Assembly (NCBI RefSeq): GCF_040529045.1 | Contig: NZ_CP131914.1 | Coordinates: 2,588,501 to 2,652,500, forward strand | Length of the DNA: 64,000 nt | DNA from: Xanthomonas indica | GTDB lineage: Bacteria; Pseudomonadota; Gammaproteobacteria; Xanthomonadales; Xanthomonadaceae | Direction of reading: 5' to 3' | Shown here: in pieces, positions 57,774 to 64,000 of the stretch | Numbering within the stretch: position 1 is the first letter of the stretch | How the letters are laid out: each line of letters opens with the position of its first letter | Notes under the pieces: model-generated | What the model was told of the DNA's origin: nothing | What the model saw: the letters and a program-made list of their open reading frames with translations, nothing else | The model's database searches: none | Position numbers and translations under genes: made by a program

Positions 57774-58232
57774 GTGCCCGGCGTTCGGGCGCCGCAACGC
57801 CGAGGCCTGCGATCCGCGCACGCGATCGCGTTCCCGACGATGACCGACGGCGTGCCGCGCGGTGCTCGTGCACCCGCGGCGCATGCGCAGCGTGCGCTGA
57901 CGCGTCGATGATGCGGCGCGATGTCGGCACCGACGGTCGCGCCGTTGGCTCGCGTGTCTGCGAGTTGTCTGGCGCGGCGTCGCCGCATTGGCAAATTTTT
58001 CCTCGGTCGCTGCAACGCGGCGTCGTCGTTTCACGGGCCGCTGACAGCGGCGTGCACGCCCTCCATACGAGTGCAGCCAAGGCGCGTGCGCCGCGGCAGA
58101 CGCGATTCGCCCCCAAACCCTGACAGGACGCCACATCGGCAGGTGCGCGGCCCGTACCGCGCGCACTTGGCACGCCATTTGCGCTGACCTCTCCCACGCC
58201 AGGCGATGACGCCCGGCCTCTGCGAGGAGTCG
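57774..58232. promoter_or_regulatory. Upstream region of the sigma-54 operon
   Basis: The 459-bp stretch has no supported gene. It contains the sigma-54 promoter at 58168 and, about 110 bp before it, a perfect palindrome GGCGTGCACGCC (58049-58060) that might serve an enhancer-binding activator; that role is a guess. Confidence 0.5.
58168..58182 (+). promoter_or_regulatory. Sigma-54 (RpoN) promoter
   Basis: TGGCACGCCATTTGC matches the -24/-12 consensus TGGCACG-N4-TTGC exactly, with correct spacing. Transcription should start near 58194, leaving a leader of about 40 nt before the first gene, whose ribosome site (GAGGAG) is 6 nt before its ATG. Activation by an enhancer-binding protein is therefore expected. 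Confidence 0.85.
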
Positions 58233-59243
58233 ATGATGGATGGCGCAATTGCTTCCCCTACCACCCAAGCGCCACCGCGCGCGCTGGTCGCCGGCGGTGC
58301 CGGCTTCGTCGGTGCGCATCTGTGCGAGCGCCTGCTCGAGGACGGCTACGACGTCACCGTGCTGGACAACCTGCTGACCGGCTCGCTGGACAATCTCGCG
58401 CATCTGCTGGGACAGCCGCGCTTCCGTTTCGTGGCCCACGACGTGGTGCAGCCGTACCAGGCCAAGGTCGACTGGGTGTTCAACCTGGCCTGCTGCGCTT
58501 CGCCGGTGCATTACCAGGCGCGTCCGCTGCATACCTTGCAGACCTGCCTGGAAGGCGCGATCAACCTGTTGGAGGTGGCGCGCAGCAACGGCGCGACCAT
58601 CTTCCAGGCCTCCACCAGCGAGGTCTACGGCGAGCCGGAGGTGCATCCGCAACGCGAGGACTACCGCGGTGCGGTCAGCCCGATCGGGCCGCGCGCCTGT
58701 TACGACGAGGGCAAGCGCTGCGCCGAAGCGGCGTTCTTCGATTACCACCGGCTGTACGCCACCGACATCAAGGTCGGCCGCATCTTCAATACCTACGGCC
58801 CGCGCATGCGCAACGACGACGGTCGGGTGGTGTCCAACCTGATCGTGCAGGCGCTGCGCGAGCAGCCGCTGACCCTGTACGGCGACGGCAGCCAGACCCG
58901 TTCGTTCTGCTACGTCTCCGATCTGGTCGAGGGCATCGTGCAACTGATGCGCAGCCCGCGTGGCTTCACCGGCCCGGTCAACCTCGGCAATCCGCACGAG
59001 ATCACCGTGGCCGAGCTGGCGCAGCGGATCCTGGCCCTGACCGGCTCGTCCTCGCGCATCGTGCGCCGGCCGATGCCCAAGGACGACCCGACCCGGCGCT
59101 GCCCGGACATCGGCCTGGCCCGGCGCGAACTCGGCTGGGAGCCGCAGGTGGCCTTGGACGACGGCCTGCGCCGCACCATCGCCTGGTTTCAGGCGCATCT
59201 GCACGACATCCCGGAACTGGAGGTGCAACGTGACTGTGCATGA
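58233..59243 (+). CDS. Extended SDR, UDP-glucuronate decarboxylase-like
   Basis: The 336-residue enzyme has the NAD-binding motif GGAGFVGAHL, the STSEVYGEPEVHPQ loop and the catalytic motif CYDEGKRCAEA, all characteristic of UDP-xylose synthase (UXS), as are RIFNTYGPRM and GDGSQTRSFCYVSDLVEG. The predicted reaction is UDP-glucuronate to UDP-xylose plus CO2 (or a related NDP-sugar step). First gene after the sigma-54 promoter. Its 3' end overlaps the next gene by 14 nt. The family call is good; the actual substrate is inferred. Confidence 0.87.
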   Translation: MMDGAIASPTTQAPPRALVAGGAGFVGAHLCERLLEDGYDVTVLDNLLTGSLDNLAHLLGQPRFRFVAHDVVQPYQAKVDWVFNLACCASPVHYQARPLHTLQTCLEGAINLLEVARSNGATIFQASTSEVYGEPEVHPQREDYRGAVSPIGPRACYDEGKRCAEAAFFDYHRLYATDIKVGRIFNTYGPRMRNDDGRVVSNLIVQALREQPLTLYGDGSQTRSFCYVSDLVEGIVQLMRSPRGFTGPVNLGNPHEITVAELAQRILALTGSSSRIVRRPMPKDDPTRRCPDIGLARRELGWEPQVALDDGLRRTIAWFQAHLHDIPELEVQRDCA

Positions 59244-60387
59244 ACTCAGGGGCGGCACGGGCCGCCCGCACGCCGGCAAGCGCGTGCTGATCACCGGCGG
59301 CGCCGGCTTCGTCGGCTCCCACCTGGCCGACGAGTTGCTGGCGCAGGGCTACCGGGTGCGGGTGCTCGACAACCTGTGCGCGCAGGTGCACGGCGCCAAT
59401 GCCACGCGGCCCGATTACCTGTCCGCGCAGGTGGAACTGATCGTCGGCGATGTCTGCGATCCGGCCACGGTGCGCGAGGCGCTGCAGGACGTGGACGGCG
59501 TGTTCCATCTCGCCGCCGCGGTCGGCGTGGGCCAGAGCATGTACCAGATCGCCCACTACACCCACACCAACAATCTCGGCACCGCGGTGCTGCTGGAAGC
59601 CTTGGTGGAGCGACCGGTGCAGCGGCTGGTGGTGGCGTCGAGCATGAGCGTCTACGGCGAAGGTGCCTACGTCGATGCCGACGGCACGCGCGTGCCGGTG
59701 CGCGAACGGCCGCTGGCGCAACTGCGCCGCGCGCAGTGGGAGCCGAGCGTGGACGGACGCCCGCTGCAGCCGGTGCCGACCGACGAGGGCAAGCCGGCCG
59801 AACCTTCGTCGGTGTACGCGCTGTCCAAGCTGGACCAGGAGCGCCTGTGCCTGATCGTCGGCCAGGCCTATGCGATCCCGACCACGGCATTGCGCTTCTT
59901 CAACATCTACGGCACGCGCCAGGCACTGTCCAATCCGTACACCGGGGTGCTGGCGATCTTCGCGGCGCGGCTGCTCAACCGCAAACCGCCGGTGATCTTC
60001 GAGGACGGCGCGCAACGCCGCGATTTCGTGCATGTCAGCGATGTCGCCCGTGCCTGCCGCCTGGCCTACGAAAGCGAATCCGCCGCGGGCCTGGCGTTGA
60101 ACATCGGCAGCGGCCAGGCGATCAGCATCAACGAGGTGGCGCAGCGCATCGCCGCGGCCATGGGTATCGACGATTTGCCGCCGCAGGTGTCCGGCAACTA
60201 CCGGGTGGGCGACATCCGCCACTGCTTCGCCGACATCTCCCTGGCCCGCGACCGCATCGGCTATGCGCCGCAGGTGGAGTTGCAGCAGGGGCTGGGCGAG
60301 TTGGTGACGTGGCTGCGCGAGCAGACCGCCGCCGATGGCATCGAAGCGGCCAATGCCGAGCTGGCGCGGCGGGGGTTGCAGGGATGA
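59230..60387 (+). CDS. Extended SDR, dTDP-L-rhamnose 4-epimerase-like
   Basis: The 385-residue NDP-sugar epimerase/dehydratase has GGAGFVGSHL, ASSMSVYGEGAYVD, and the catalytic SVYALSKLDQERLC. The insertion with LRRAQWEP and TDEGKPAEPSSVYALSK resembles the dTDP-L-rhamnose 4-epimerase group rather than GalE. It starts at GTG, overlapping the UXS-like gene, and ends overlapping the fusion gene (ATGA). The substrate is not known; pairing with UXS suggests work on the same sugar. Confidence 0.84.
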   Translation: MTVHELRGGTGRPHAGKRVLITGGAGFVGSHLADELLAQGYRVRVLDNLCAQVHGANATRPDYLSAQVELIVGDVCDPATVREALQDVDGVFHLAAAVGVGQSMYQIAHYTHTNNLGTAVLLEALVERPVQRLVVASSMSVYGEGAYVDADGTRVPVRERPLAQLRRAQWEPSVDGRPLQPVPTDEGKPAEPSSVYALSKLDQERLCLIVGQAYAIPTTALRFFNIYGTRQALSNPYTGVLAIFAARLLNRKPPVIFEDGAQRRDFVHVSDVARACRLAYESESAAGLALNIGSGQAISINEVAQRIAAAMGIDDLPPQVSGNYRVGDIRHCFADISLARDRIGYAPQVELQQGLGELVTWLREQTAADGIEAANAELARRGLQG

Positions 60388-62504
60388 GCGCGCAGGCACG
60401 CGAACGGCTGGCCGAGATCGGCCTGATCGAATGGTTGCGGATCGGCGACGAGGACGCCGTGCATGCGCTGTTGCGCGACATGCGCGAGCTCGGCGTGCGC
60501 CGGCTGCGCACCCAGTTCTCCTGGGCCGACTGGCACACCGCCGAGGGCGAGCGCTGGTATGCCTGGCTGATGCCGCTGCTCAGCGCGCACTGCGAGGTGT
60601 TGCCGTGCTTCTGCTACACCCCGCCATCGCTGGGGCTGGAGCCGCGCACCGCGTCGCCGCCGCGCGACAGCAAGGCTTTCGCCGATTTCATCGACCAGGT
60701 GGTGGGGCGCTTCGGCGACGGCTTCGAGTGGATCGAGCTGTGGAACGAGCCGAACAACCTCAACGACTGGGACTGGCACCTGGACCACGACTGGCAGCGC
60801 TTCGCCGAGATGATCGGCCAGGCCGCGCACTGGGCGCACCAGTTGGGCAAGAAGACCCTGCTGGGCGGCATGTGCCCGACCGATCCCAACTGGCTCGGGC
60901 TGATGGCGCGGCGCGGTGCGCTGGCGCATATCGATGCGATCGGCGTGCATGGGTTCCCCGGCACCTGGGATTTCCGTCGCCGGCCCTGGGCGGACGTGCT
61001 CGGCGAGGTGCGCGCGGTGCTGGCCGCGCACGGGTTGCAGCCGCAGGTCTGGCTCAGCGAGACCGGCTACTCGACCTGGCGCCACGACGAGATCGAGCAG
61101 GTGCGGCAGCTGCGCGAGACGCTGGATGCGCCGGTGGAGCGGCTGTACTGGTACGCCGCGCGCGACCTGCACGGCAGCATCAGCCACCAGGACGGTTTCC
61201 ACGAGGACGAGCGCCACTATCACTTCGGCCTGCGCGACGAGCGCGGCCGCGCCAAGCTGCTGTACCGGCTGTGGGCCGAGCAGGGCTACGACGGTATCGA
61301 GGCATTGGCGTCGCTGCACCACGAGCACGGCGCCAACCTGTCGCGCGCGCCGCGCCCGGAGGTCGCCCAGGAGCCGCTCGCCGCAGCGCCCAGCGCAGCT
61401 GGCCGTGCGCCGGTGCGTGCGCTGTCGCGTCCGCGCGCCGATGCGGTGCTGATCACCGGTGGCGCCGGTTTCATCGGCACCAACCTGGCCGCGCGCCTGC
61501 TCGACAGCGGGCGCCGCGTCATCGTCTACGACAACCTGTCGCGGCCCGGCGTGGAGCACAACCTGCAATGGCTGCGTCGCCACTATCCTGCCGAACGCCT
61601 GCACGTGGAGGTGGGCGACGTGCGCGACCGGCACCTGCTCGGCGATGCGGTGGCGCAGGCGGCGCAAGTGTTCCACCTGGCCGCGCAGGTGGCGGTGACC
61701 TCCAGCCTGGAGGATCCGTCGCACGACTTCGAGGTCAACCTGCGCGGCACCTTCAACGTGCTCGATGCGATCCGTTGCGCGCGGCGGCCGCCGCCGCTGC
61801 TGTTCACTTCCACCAACAAGGTGTATGGCGCGCTCGACGACGTGCCGCTGGAGGCCGACGCGCAGCGCTACCAACCCAGCGATCCGCTGCTGCGCGCGCG
61901 CGGCATCGACGAGCGCCGCGCGCTGGATTTCCACAGCCCCTACGGCTGCTCCAAGGGCGGCGCCGACCAGTACGTGCTGGATTACGCGCGCAGCTTCGGC
62001 CTGCAGGCGGTGGTGCTGCGGATGAGCTGCATCTATGGCCCGCACCAGTGCGGCAACGAGGACCAGGGCTGGGTCGCGCACTTCCTGATCCGCGCGTTGC
62101 AGCAGCAGCCGATCACCGTGTACGGCGATGGCCGCCAGGTCCGCGACCTGCTGTTCGTCGACGACCTGGTGGAGGCGTTCCTGCAGTGCCAGGCGCAGAT
62201 GCCGCGGCTGTCCGGGCGGGCGTTCAACATGGGCGGCGGGCCGGCCAATGCCGCCAGCCTGCGCGAGGTGCTGCGGCGGATCGAGGTCCTGGTCGGCCAT
62301 CGCCTGGAACTGGCGCACGCCGCGCCGCGGGTCGGCGACCAGCGCTACTACGTCTCCGACACCCGCGCCTTCGCCGCGACCACCGGCTGGTCGCCTCGCG
62401 TCGGCGCCGATGCCGGCATCACCCGGCTGCACCGCTGGCTGCACACGCAGGCAGAGCGCGCCGCACCTGTTTCCCCACCGCAACGGAGGATCCACGCCGC
62501 ATGA
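60384..62504 (+). CDS. Fusion protein: clan-A glycoside hydrolase-like domain plus CDP-paratose 2-epimerase-like SDR
   Basis: The 706-residue cytoplasmic protein has no signal peptide. Residues 1-325 form a TIM-barrel glycosidase of clan GH-A (GH39/GH5-like) with the acid/base in IELWNEPNN (E about 122) and a nucleophile-type Glu in WLSETGYST (about 226). After a Pro/Ala-rich linker (about 330-352), residues 353-706 are an SDR with GGAGFIGTN, FTSTNKVYG, the catalytic SPYGCSKGGADQ (Y about 520, K about 524) and MSCIYGPHQ / NEDQGWVAHF, the signature of RfbE-type CDP-paratose 2-epimerases. Both catalytic centres look intact. A hydrolase fused to a sugar-nucleotide epimerase is unusual. Overlaps on both sides keep it in the operon. 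Confidence 0.87.
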   Translation: MSAQARERLAEIGLIEWLRIGDEDAVHALLRDMRELGVRRLRTQFSWADWHTAEGERWYAWLMPLLSAHCEVLPCFCYTPPSLGLEPRTASPPRDSKAFADFIDQVVGRFGDGFEWIELWNEPNNLNDWDWHLDHDWQRFAEMIGQAAHWAHQLGKKTLLGGMCPTDPNWLGLMARRGALAHIDAIGVHGFPGTWDFRRRPWADVLGEVRAVLAAHGLQPQVWLSETGYSTWRHDEIEQVRQLRETLDAPVERLYWYAARDLHGSISHQDGFHEDERHYHFGLRDERGRAKLLYRLWAEQGYDGIEALASLHHEHGANLSRAPRPEVAQEPLAAAPSAAGRAPVRALSRPRADAVLITGGAGFIGTNLAARLLDSGRRVIVYDNLSRPGVEHNLQWLRRHYPAERLHVEVGDVRDRHLLGDAVAQAAQVFHLAAQVAVTSSLEDPSHDFEVNLRGTFNVLDAIRCARRPPPLLFTSTNKVYGALDDVPLEADAQRYQPSDPLLRARGIDERRALDFHSPYGCSKGGADQYVLDYARSFGLQAVVLRMSCIYGPHQCGNEDQGWVAHFLIRALQQQPITVYGDGRQVRDLLFVDDLVEAFLQCQAQMPRLSGRAFNMGGGPANAASLREVLRRIEVLVGHRLELAHAAPRVGDQRYYVSDTRAFAATTGWSPRVGADAGITRLHRWLHTQAERAAPVSPPQRRIHAA

Positions 62505-63463
62505 ACAGCATGCATGCCGCCGTCTTCGAAGGCCCGGGCCGCATCGTCGCCCAGCGCCAGCCACGCCCCGAACCCGCGCCGCAGCAGGTGCGGGTGCGCC
62601 TGCATGGCTGCGGCGTGTGTGCGTCCAATCTGCCGGTGTGGGCCGGCCGGCCCTGGTTCGCCTATCCGTTCGAACCCGGTGCGCCCGGCCACGAAGGCTG
62701 GGGCGAGGTCGACGCGGTCGGCGCCGAAGTCCGCGACTGGGCGCCGGGCGACCGCGTCGTGCTGCTGTCCGGCCGCGCCTATGCCGAGTACGACCTGGCC
62801 GAACCCGACGCGCTGGTGCGCTTGCCGCCGTCGCTGTCCGGCCGCGATCTGCCCGGCGAGCCGCTGGCCTGCGCGATGAACATCCTGCGCCGCAGCGACA
62901 TCCAGCCCGGCCATACCGTCGCGGTGGTCGGCGTCGGCTTCATCGGTGCGTTGCTGATCCAGTTGGCCACCGGGCTCGGCGCGCAGGTGATCGCGCTGTC
63001 GCGGCGTGAGTACGCGCTGCAGATCGCGCGCCAGTGCGGCGCCAGCGCCACGCTGGCCACCGAGGACCGGTACGCGGCGATCGGCGCGGTGCACGAACTC
63101 ACCGGCGGCAGCGGCTGCCTGCGGGTGATCGAGGCCGCAGGCGAGCAGGTCACCCTCGACATCGCCAGCGCGCTGTGCGGTGAAGGCGGGCGCCTGGTCA
63201 TCGCCGGCTACCACCAGGACGGCCCGCGCCAGGTCGACATGCAGCAGTGGAACTGGCGTGGCCTGGACGTGGTCAACGCGCACGAGCGCGATCCGCGGGT
63301 GGCGCTCCGTGGCCTGCAGGAGGCGGTGGACGCGGTCGCCGACGGGCGCCTGAATCCGTTTCCGCTGTTGACCCACCGCTATGCGCTGGATCGGCTGCCG
63401 CAGGCGTTCGCGGACATGGAGGCGCGCCCCGAGGGCTTCCTCAAAGGCGTGGTGCTGGCATGA
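62501..63463 (+). CDS. Zinc-type medium-chain alcohol dehydrogenase family protein
   Basis: The 320-residue MDR protein has the catalytic zinc motif GCGVCASNLPVW and GHEGWGEV, a third likely ligand in GEPLACAMN, and a Rossmann motif VVGVGFIGALLIQ. It lacks the structural-zinc four-Cys loop, like BchC/sorbitol-dehydrogenase-like shorter members. It probably oxidises a sugar or polyol alcohol. GGAGG lies 9 nt before the ATG, which overlaps the fusion gene's stop. Confidence 0.87.
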   Translation: MNSMHAAVFEGPGRIVAQRQPRPEPAPQQVRVRLHGCGVCASNLPVWAGRPWFAYPFEPGAPGHEGWGEVDAVGAEVRDWAPGDRVVLLSGRAYAEYDLAEPDALVRLPPSLSGRDLPGEPLACAMNILRRSDIQPGHTVAVVGVGFIGALLIQLATGLGAQVIALSRREYALQIARQCGASATLATEDRYAAIGAVHELTGGSGCLRVIEAAGEQVTLDIASALCGEGGRLVIAGYHQDGPRQVDMQQWNWRGLDVVNAHERDPRVALRGLQEAVDAVADGRLNPFPLLTHRYALDRLPQAFADMEARPEGFLKGVVLA

Positions 63464-64000
63464 ACGCGTGGGCGCAACCGCGTTGGCGCGCGCCGCGGCT
63501 GGGGTTCCTCGGCGTCGGCTGGATCGGCCGTGCACGCATGCGCGCCCTGGCCGACAGCGGACTGGGCCAGGTGGTGGCGATCGCCGATGCCAGCGCGACG
63601 GCGCTGCACGACGCATGCCAGGACGCACCGGCCGCCGACCTGCTGCCCGACCTGGAGGCGCTGCTGGCGCGCGAGGACCTGGACGGCGTGGTCATCGCCA
63701 CGCCCAGTGGCGCGCACGCCGCGCAGGCCGCCGCGGCCCTGCAGCGCGGCCTGGCGGTGTTCTGCCAGAAACCGCTGACCCGCACCGCCGCCGAAGCCGA
63801 GCAGGTGCTGGCGCTGGCGCAACGCCACGACCGCCTGCTCGCGGTGGATTTCAGCTACCGCTTCGCCAAGGGCATGGCGACGCTGCGCGAGCAGATCGCG
63901 CAGGGCGCACTGGGCGAGGTGTTCGCGATCGACCTGCTGTTCCACAACGCCTACGGCCCGGACAAGGACTGGTTCTACGACATCGCCCGTTCCGGCGGCG
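63460..64000 (+). CDS. Gfo/Idh/MocA-family oxidoreductase, N-terminal part (cut by window edge)
   Basis: About 180 residues are visible: the dinucleotide-binding GFLGVGWIGRARMRALADSG, the VVIATPSGAHAAQ turn and the catalytic-region VFCQKPLTRTAAEAEQ (EKP variant QKP). These enzymes oxidise or reduce sugar carbons with NAD(P). The start overlaps the dehydrogenase stop by 4 nt. Partner of the MDR enzyme in the unknown pathway; the rest of the operon lies beyond the window. Confidence 0.9.
   Translation, partial: MNAWAQPRWRAPRLGFLGVGWIGRARMRALADSGLGQVVAIADASATALHDACQDAPAADLLPDLEALLAREDLDGVVIATPSGAHAAQAAAALQRGLAVFCQKPLTRTAAEAEQVLALAQRHDRLLAVDFSYRFAKGMATLREQIAQGALGEVFAIDLLFHNAYGPDKDWFYDIARSGG

Follow-up and report, generated by a model that had tools for sequence, protein, structure and literature searches.

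Predicted glycosidase–epimerase fusion and its circularly permuted relatives in a conserved bacterial gene cluster

In a 64,000-nucleotide stretch of Xanthomonas indica DNA (contig NZ_CP131914.1, positions 2,588,501 to 2,652,500, forward strand; hereafter the window), one gene of 706 codons plus a stop (60384..62504, + strand) joins a (beta/alpha)8 barrel of the glycoside hydrolase clan A (GH-A) type to a short-chain dehydrogenase/reductase (SDR) of the CDP-tyvelose-2-epimerase type. We consider it probable that the product is a catalytically active retaining glycosidase or transglycosylase of the cytoplasm, fused to an epimerase and working in a conserved oligosaccharide or glycoside pathway. 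Two sets of observations bear on this prediction. The barrel is inherited together with one specific gene cluster, which holds a TIGR04290 methyltransferase, a GT4 and three further glycosyltransferases, SDRs, and dehydrogenases or a radical SAM protein; and loss of the barrel's catalytic glutamates is tied to the presence of a second, circularly permuted barrel, an association that is strong but not proven.

These findings point to an uncharacterised pathway in Xanthomonas, on plasmids of Rhizobium and Sinorhizobium, and in Cyanobacteria, Pontibacter and its relatives, Geomonas, Verrucomicrobiota, and others, and the barrel gives that pathway an assayable catalytic handle. They also describe a natural experiment in protein evolution—the same barrel occurs fused, alone, and circularly permuted in one kind of cluster—and the decay of the fused copy in genomes holding the permuted one suggests that a cutting activity matters in a pathway that builds sugars. 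A preliminary description of the gene, made from the DNA alone, knew of no characterised enzyme with this architecture; likewise, in the open-licence literature we found none, nor any publication that treats the fusion, its cluster, or the permuted barrel, nor one naming TIGR04290 or TIGR04295. Both halves have known folds, and NCBIfam already models the methyltransferase family; TIGR04290 and TIGR04295 are hypothetical equivalogs there, with model names that state no function.

The fused protein and its two halves

The reading frame starts inside the stop codon of the upstream SDR gene and ends inside the start of the next gene, and it is supported by codon checks, Pfam, and an AlphaFold2 model (built from 51 aligned fusions) with a mean predicted local distance difference test score (pLDDT) of 86. 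In the model, the barrel (residues 11–313; 60414..61322, +) and the SDR, here called SDR3 (residues 354–690; 61443..62453, +), are both well predicted, whereas the linker that joins these well-folded domains (residues 314–350; 61323..61433, +) is disordered, with pLDDT below 50. Between fixed points the linker measures 20 to 84 residues across 67 fusions and 53 residues in the window protein, and this disorder and variable length speak against a fixed channel linking one active site to the other. A crude hydropathy scan found no signal peptide or membrane segment in the fusion; averaged over 19 residues, hydropathy peaks at 1.35, at residue 355 in the Rossmann part of the SDR. The preliminary description had proposed a single frame with two intact domains, a cytoplasmic setting, and a nucleotide-sugar operon. 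The codons, domain matches, and model bear out the first proposal, showing two folded domains with their catalytic residues kept, the hydropathy scan agrees with the second, and the SDRs, dehydrogenase, and glycosyltransferases around the gene support the third.

In the barrel half, the strands and helices of the (beta/alpha)8 fold are predicted at high confidence. Glutamate E122 (60747..60749, +; motif WNEPN, 60741-60755) lies behind strand 116–119, at the end of beta4, and E226 (61059..61061, +; motif SETGY, 61056-61070) lies in strand 221–228, at the end of beta7; both motifs were confirmed codon by codon. Kinship with a characterised glycosidase is seen through the profile of the stand-alone permuted relatives described below, which matches the solved PslG structure at E 1.3e-7 in two pieces of swapped order (profile 195–295 on chain 19–130, and 3–166 on chain 132–303). 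The two glutamates of these relatives correspond to chain positions 139 and 250, which a constant offset of 26 converts to Glu165 and Glu276, the acid/base and nucleophile of PslG (PMC11912335); by alignment these are the counterparts of E122, the predicted acid/base, and E226, the predicted nucleophile. PslG is a GH39 retaining endo-beta-glucosidase of the Psl polysaccharide cluster of Pseudomonas aeruginosa (PMC11912335). It resembles the fused barrel in its GH-A barrel, its glutamate pair, and its place as a glycosidase within a polysaccharide biosynthesis system, but differs in lacking an epimerase and in having a signal peptide, its mature form being taken as periplasmic (PMC11912335). 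We predict that the barrel is most likely a GH39/PslG-type retaining beta-glycosidase or transglycosylase. In Foldseek searches, only SDRs appeared among the best 50 matches listed for the fusion model, with no GH-A match for the barrel, and the permuted model returned generic TIM barrels alone and no GH-A match, as an order-dependent method would give.

The SDR half matches Pfam Epimerase (8e-48) and the solved CDP-tyvelose 2-epimerases 9rl0 (TaTyvE; 4e-78) and 1orr (Salmonella; 8e-78), and Foldseek superposes it on 1orr with a template modelling score of 0.93 on the target and 40% identity. Unlike the fusion, these two enzymes (340 and 347 residues) have no barrel. In TaTyvE, the catalytic residues are Thr124, Tyr164, and Lys168, a TNK segment spans 124–126 and a VAM segment 83–85, and the cytidine site includes Trp207, Trp210, and Phe211. 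The counterparts of the catalytic residues—T477, Y520, and K524—are present in 53/53 aligned rows, as is the whole TNK segment (T477-N478-K479; 61812..61820, +); the stretch from Y520 to K524 lies at 61941..61955 (+), and alignment and codons agree for both segments. Equivalents of Gln205, Trp207 (Trp563), and Phe211 (Phe567) are also kept. Two features of TaTyvE are not kept: Trp210 is replaced by His566 in 53/53 rows, and the VAM segment reads VAV in 50 rows and TAV in the other three, the counterpart of Met85 being Val438 in all 53. We infer that the SDR half would be a C2 epimerase of a nucleoside diphosphate (NDP) sugar. The earlier label of a CDP-paratose-2-epimerase-like SDR holds for the catalytic residues; the loss of the cytidine-site tryptophan leaves the CDP part of it unsecured, and the nucleotide may differ.

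Distribution, cluster linkage, and permuted barrels

Scanning a collection of named genomes with a barrel profile yielded 72 loci, whose frames were compared with the cluster proteins by phmmer. Barrel and epimerase share a single frame at 65 of these, which rules out a frame or assembly artefact. The fused loci belong to Lysobacteraceae, Desulfobulbaceae, Geomonas, Cyanobacteria, Bacteroidota, and Verrucomicrobiota, and further to Armatimonadota, Gemmatimonadota, Planctomycetota, and alphaproteobacteria. Among the seven unfused loci, L104 is cut by a contig end, in the planctomycetal L108 and L109 the barrel is separate but unpermuted and follows the methyltransferase, and L112, L113, and L114 have a separate, permuted one; fused, separate, and permuted homologues all exist. 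At the seventh, a Gaiellaceae locus (L098:8650-9903), a barrel sits in the cluster with no epimerase half beside it. Within the window's own genus the fusion is patchy, with full-length matches in 3/19 genomes including the window's. The plasmid collection includes a Xanthomonas sacchari record of 508,653 bases that encodes the barrel at 96% identity (NZ_CP010410.1:484443-485428), while that of the window genome sits in a single 4.8-Mb contig. A phage origin was also considered and rejected, with no match in phage records and no confirmed relative in viral contigs.

The link to one cluster is clearest when the TIGR04290 methyltransferase is used as its marker. Of 398 genomes sampled from the window's phylum, 14 have TIGR04290 over the cut-off, and a strong barrel match (E 2e-28 or better) occurs in exactly those 14—fused in three (G000, G321, and G370) and permuted in eleven. 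The barrel profile reaches E values up to 1e-4 in 18 of the 398; the four weaker matches (E 2e-18 to 3e-5) come without TIGR04290 over the cut-off, and we take them for other glycosidases. All three unpermuted barrels of this sample, the window's own included, are fused. Among 120 genomes of the family of Pontibacter pamirensis (G460), TIGR04290 and the barrel (E up to 1e-18) each occur in 43, and 42 genomes have both. A further sample of 296 genomes from a second phylum was uninformative, only the centre genome passing for TIGR04290.

Stand-alone relatives match the barrel profile as positions ~114–291 followed by 10–113. Their chains open with strand beta4 and its WNE motif and close with beta1–beta3 (strand order beta4–8, beta1–3), and the predicted model of one shows a complete, eight-stranded barrel (pLDDT 81, predicted template modelling score 0.85). 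Since PslG is not permuted, the simplest reading takes the permuted form as derived; natural circular permutations are, to our knowledge, uncommon in clan GH-A. Examples lie at L042:9518-10402 (−), L164:21010-21894 (+), and L152:9901-10833 (+), among others. In plasmid records of S. meliloti, Roseomonas, Azospirillum, and Paracoccus, stand-alone barrels are labelled 'beta-xylosidase', 'glycosyl hydrolase', or 'hypothetical protein' or carry no annotation; fused members are annotated as epimerase or SDR proteins, so that their glycosidase half is invisible in the annotation.

On a tree of 53 epimerase halves—like all our trees a quick one, with no bootstrap and several long branches—the fused or separate state changes 6 times, at least 3 of these via well-supported branches. 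For each of the nine separate epimerases in the tree set, a separate barrel lies in the cluster or elsewhere in the genome (eight permuted, one unpermuted), although in G021 the permuted barrel is on a contig other than the epimerase's. The permuted gene adjoins the methyltransferase gene in many alphaproteobacteria, but not in S. meliloti. It is usually accompanied by a histidine phosphatase and by one of two kinds of inositol-phosphate synthase, TIGR03450-like at some loci and PF07994/PF01658 at others (L088:16359-17543; L042:10443-11762). Some loci add a nucleotidyltransferase, or a pyruvyl-transferase with an FrhB-like protein. L112 and L113 have none of these companions, and in the stretch seen the group is mostly missing from loci with the fused form only.

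Loss of the catalytic glutamates and competing explanations

Among 74 unpermuted barrels (two genomes counted twice), E122 is present in 69, E226 in 72, and both in 68, which rules out a dead fold as a general explanation. Four of the six exceptions, all in Verrucomicrobiota (L088, L089, L092, and L094), have lysine at 122; the other two are from Hymenobacter, with alanine at 226 in L096, and glutamine at 122 and a gap at 226 in L106. In contrast to these, permuted barrels keep both glutamates throughout (30/30 rows, plus 10/10 further). We then set glutamate loss against the presence of a permuted barrel in 72 distinct genomes, drawn from 55 (3 doubles and 4 without an unpermuted barrel) and another 24, with L049 left out. 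All six genomes that have lost a glutamate hold a permuted barrel in which both are kept, and 11 of the 66 intact ones hold a permuted barrel. The Pontibacter family sample contributed 14 further genomes with an unpermuted barrel: a glutamate is lost in four (G821, G828, G841, and G851) of the eight that also hold a permuted barrel and in none of the six that do not, and the permuted barrels of all eight keep both. Combined, the permuted barrel accompanies 10/10 genomes with glutamate loss and 15/76 intact ones (naive Fisher 9e-7, kinship ignored), and wherever it is absent—absences that rest on possibly incomplete assemblies—both glutamates are intact (61/61). In G824 (L178:577-2639), which also has a permuted barrel, barrel and epimerase lie in two overlapping, different frames, either a fission or a frame error.

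The overall divergence of the unpermuted barrels points the same way. In the family sample, the 13 lowest of 41 unpermuted barrel scores all belong to permuted-positive genomes (naive Mann-Whitney 3e-4, kinship ignored). Across 33 Hymenobacteraceae loci, a set that has many genomes in common with the family sample, the median ratio of barrel to epimerase identity is 0.847 with a permuted barrel and 0.929 without (p 0.0067, kinship ignored), while the epimerase half is not faster in the permuted-positive loci (p 0.17).

The preliminary description had regarded loss of the barrel glutamates in close homologues as the mark of a dead fold, and had left the barrel's role open among transglycosylase, hydrolase acting on a glycosylated intermediate, and carbohydrate-binding scaffold. 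Loss does occur, in ten of the genomes examined, but among these only where an intact permuted barrel is present, a pattern that argues for catalysis and against a scaffold and so favours the catalytic options. That the barrel is instead a catalytically dispensable carbohydrate-binding or structural domain, positioning the pathway's acceptor, seems to us improbable. Such a role would suit its fusion to a non-hydrolase and the persistence of the domain, in frame, where a catalytic glutamate is gone (6/74 barrels and four of the eight permuted-positive genomes added later); yet it does not account for the intact permuted barrel in 10/10 glutamate-less genomes, for the 61/61 intact pairs elsewhere, or for an epimerase half that does not relax along with the barrel. 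We regard as very unlikely a salvage or quality-control hydrolase coupled to the SDR, acting on the nucleotide sugar or sugar phosphate that is the epimerase's substrate or product: recurrent fusion to one SDR, at 65/72 loci, would fit it, but separate forms often stand beside a methyltransferase, an inositol-phosphate synthase, or a phosphatase rather than an SDR, the disordered and variable linker offers no channelling geometry, and the PslG paper names glycosides as substrates of GH39 enzymes (PMC11912335).

A neutral fusion of two operon genes, whose products act far apart in one pathway without functional coupling, is a credible possibility. Consistent with it are the variable linker, the separate frames of the two halves in G824, and the up to 6 changes of fused state on the SDR tree (at least 3 well supported), although fusions in many phyla indicate that the joined form has been kept or regained widely. 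Such a history is compatible with an active glycosidase fused to an epimerase and differs solely on why the halves are fused. Under the active-glycosidase reading, the SDR would make an NDP-sugar by C2 epimerisation and the barrel would work in the cytoplasm on what the cluster itself produces, cutting or transferring a beta-linked unit of it, whether for trimming, primer recycling, or transglycosylation, while the fusion may hold two steps of one pathway together without fixed geometry. More tentatively, the shared cytoplasmic pathway may make a methylated, partly inositol-linked oligosaccharide that needs an intracellular retaining glycosidase for primer recycling or transglycosylation, the two topologies being interchangeable and the permuted one letting the fused site decay. 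A working analogy is the mycobacterial methylmannose polysaccharide (MMP) system, in which the glycosidase MmpH cuts the polysaccharide into primers (PMC9883506): there too a glycosidase would serve a methylated-polysaccharide gene cluster, although MmpH is an alpha-endomannosidase and the other cluster contents differ.

Several results weigh against an active glycosidase tied to this cluster and relieved by its permuted counterpart. The barrel half matched no Pfam family even at E 10, and its matches to GH39 xylosidases are weak (0.17 with the single sequence, 0.013 with a profile). In the linkage data, G836 has TIGR04290 without a barrel match and G859 a permuted barrel without TIGR04290. 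Of the 19 unpermuted barrels from genomes that also hold a permuted one, six reach the scores of those lacking such a partner, and the glutamate-less barrels are still in frame, which may reflect a non-catalytic role or simple lag. Finally, presence of the permuted barrel changes 10 times on the tree and glutamate loss 6 times, and an independent-pairs sign test is not significant (median p 0.25): 2–4 pairs agree in one pairing and 1–4 in the other, with none disagreeing, and p cannot reach 0.05 because there are fewer than 6 informative pairs.

Neighbouring genes and variable companions

The cluster's first gene here encodes a UXS-like SDR of the UDP-glucuronate decarboxylase type, assigned by homology (58233..59243, +; an earlier start at 58206 is possible). 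Its homologues in R. etli and Roseomonas are annotated as UDP-glucuronic acid decarboxylase family proteins, and an SDR of this type occurs in 24/101 stretches, some of which are doubles. It is followed by SDR2, a GalE-like extended SDR (59236..60387, +) that usually precedes the fusion or a separate SDR3. Downstream of the fusion lie a Zn-dependent dehydrogenase (62501..63463, +), whose best NCBIfam match, scyllo-inosose 3-dehydrogenase, is far below the cut-off, and a Gfo/Idh/MocA oxidoreductase (63460..63999, +) cut by the window end. Beyond the window (L034:6963-12524) follow a GT4, three glycosyltransferases, a 90-aa protein, and the TIGR04290 methyltransferase, which scores 329.8 bits against a cut-off of 300. 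The commonest gene order is SDR2, fusion, Zn-dehydrogenase, Gfo/Idh, GT4, three PF13524 glycosyltransferases (which we take to be those called 'CgeB-type'), and methyltransferase. The 90-aa protein (L034:11436-11708) has no Pfam or NCBIfam match and has relatives in 13/101 stretches.

A B12 radical SAM protein, TIGR04295, is encoded in 10/101 stretches; the one scanned reaches 735.8 bits against a cut-off of 400. The variant is seen at L048:10887-12275 and also at L049, L050, L053, L090, L112, L147, L148, and L159. The Zn-dehydrogenase and Gfo/Idh genes were not found in the stretch at L048, L049, L050, L053, L090, L112, and L159, and it looks as if these two genes and the TIGR04295 radical SAM gene could replace each other. 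In the annotated plasmid clusters of R. etli CFN42 (p42b), S. meliloti, and Roseomonas mucosa, whose gene tables are incomplete, we found no exporter, flippase, or polymerase inside the cluster; transporter genes are present outside.

We also considered general-stress promoters of the EcfG-like type, for which the signal is too weak: 14 matches occurred against 5 expected from single-base shuffles across 19 alphaproteobacterial loci, four of the 14 near cluster genes. These four sites, of the form GGAAC-N16/17-CGTT (L144:6883, L147:5087, L150:15035, and L099:7504), lie near the start of the inositol-phosphate synthase gene or the gene for the 90-aa protein and in some alphaproteobacteria could point to general-stress control.

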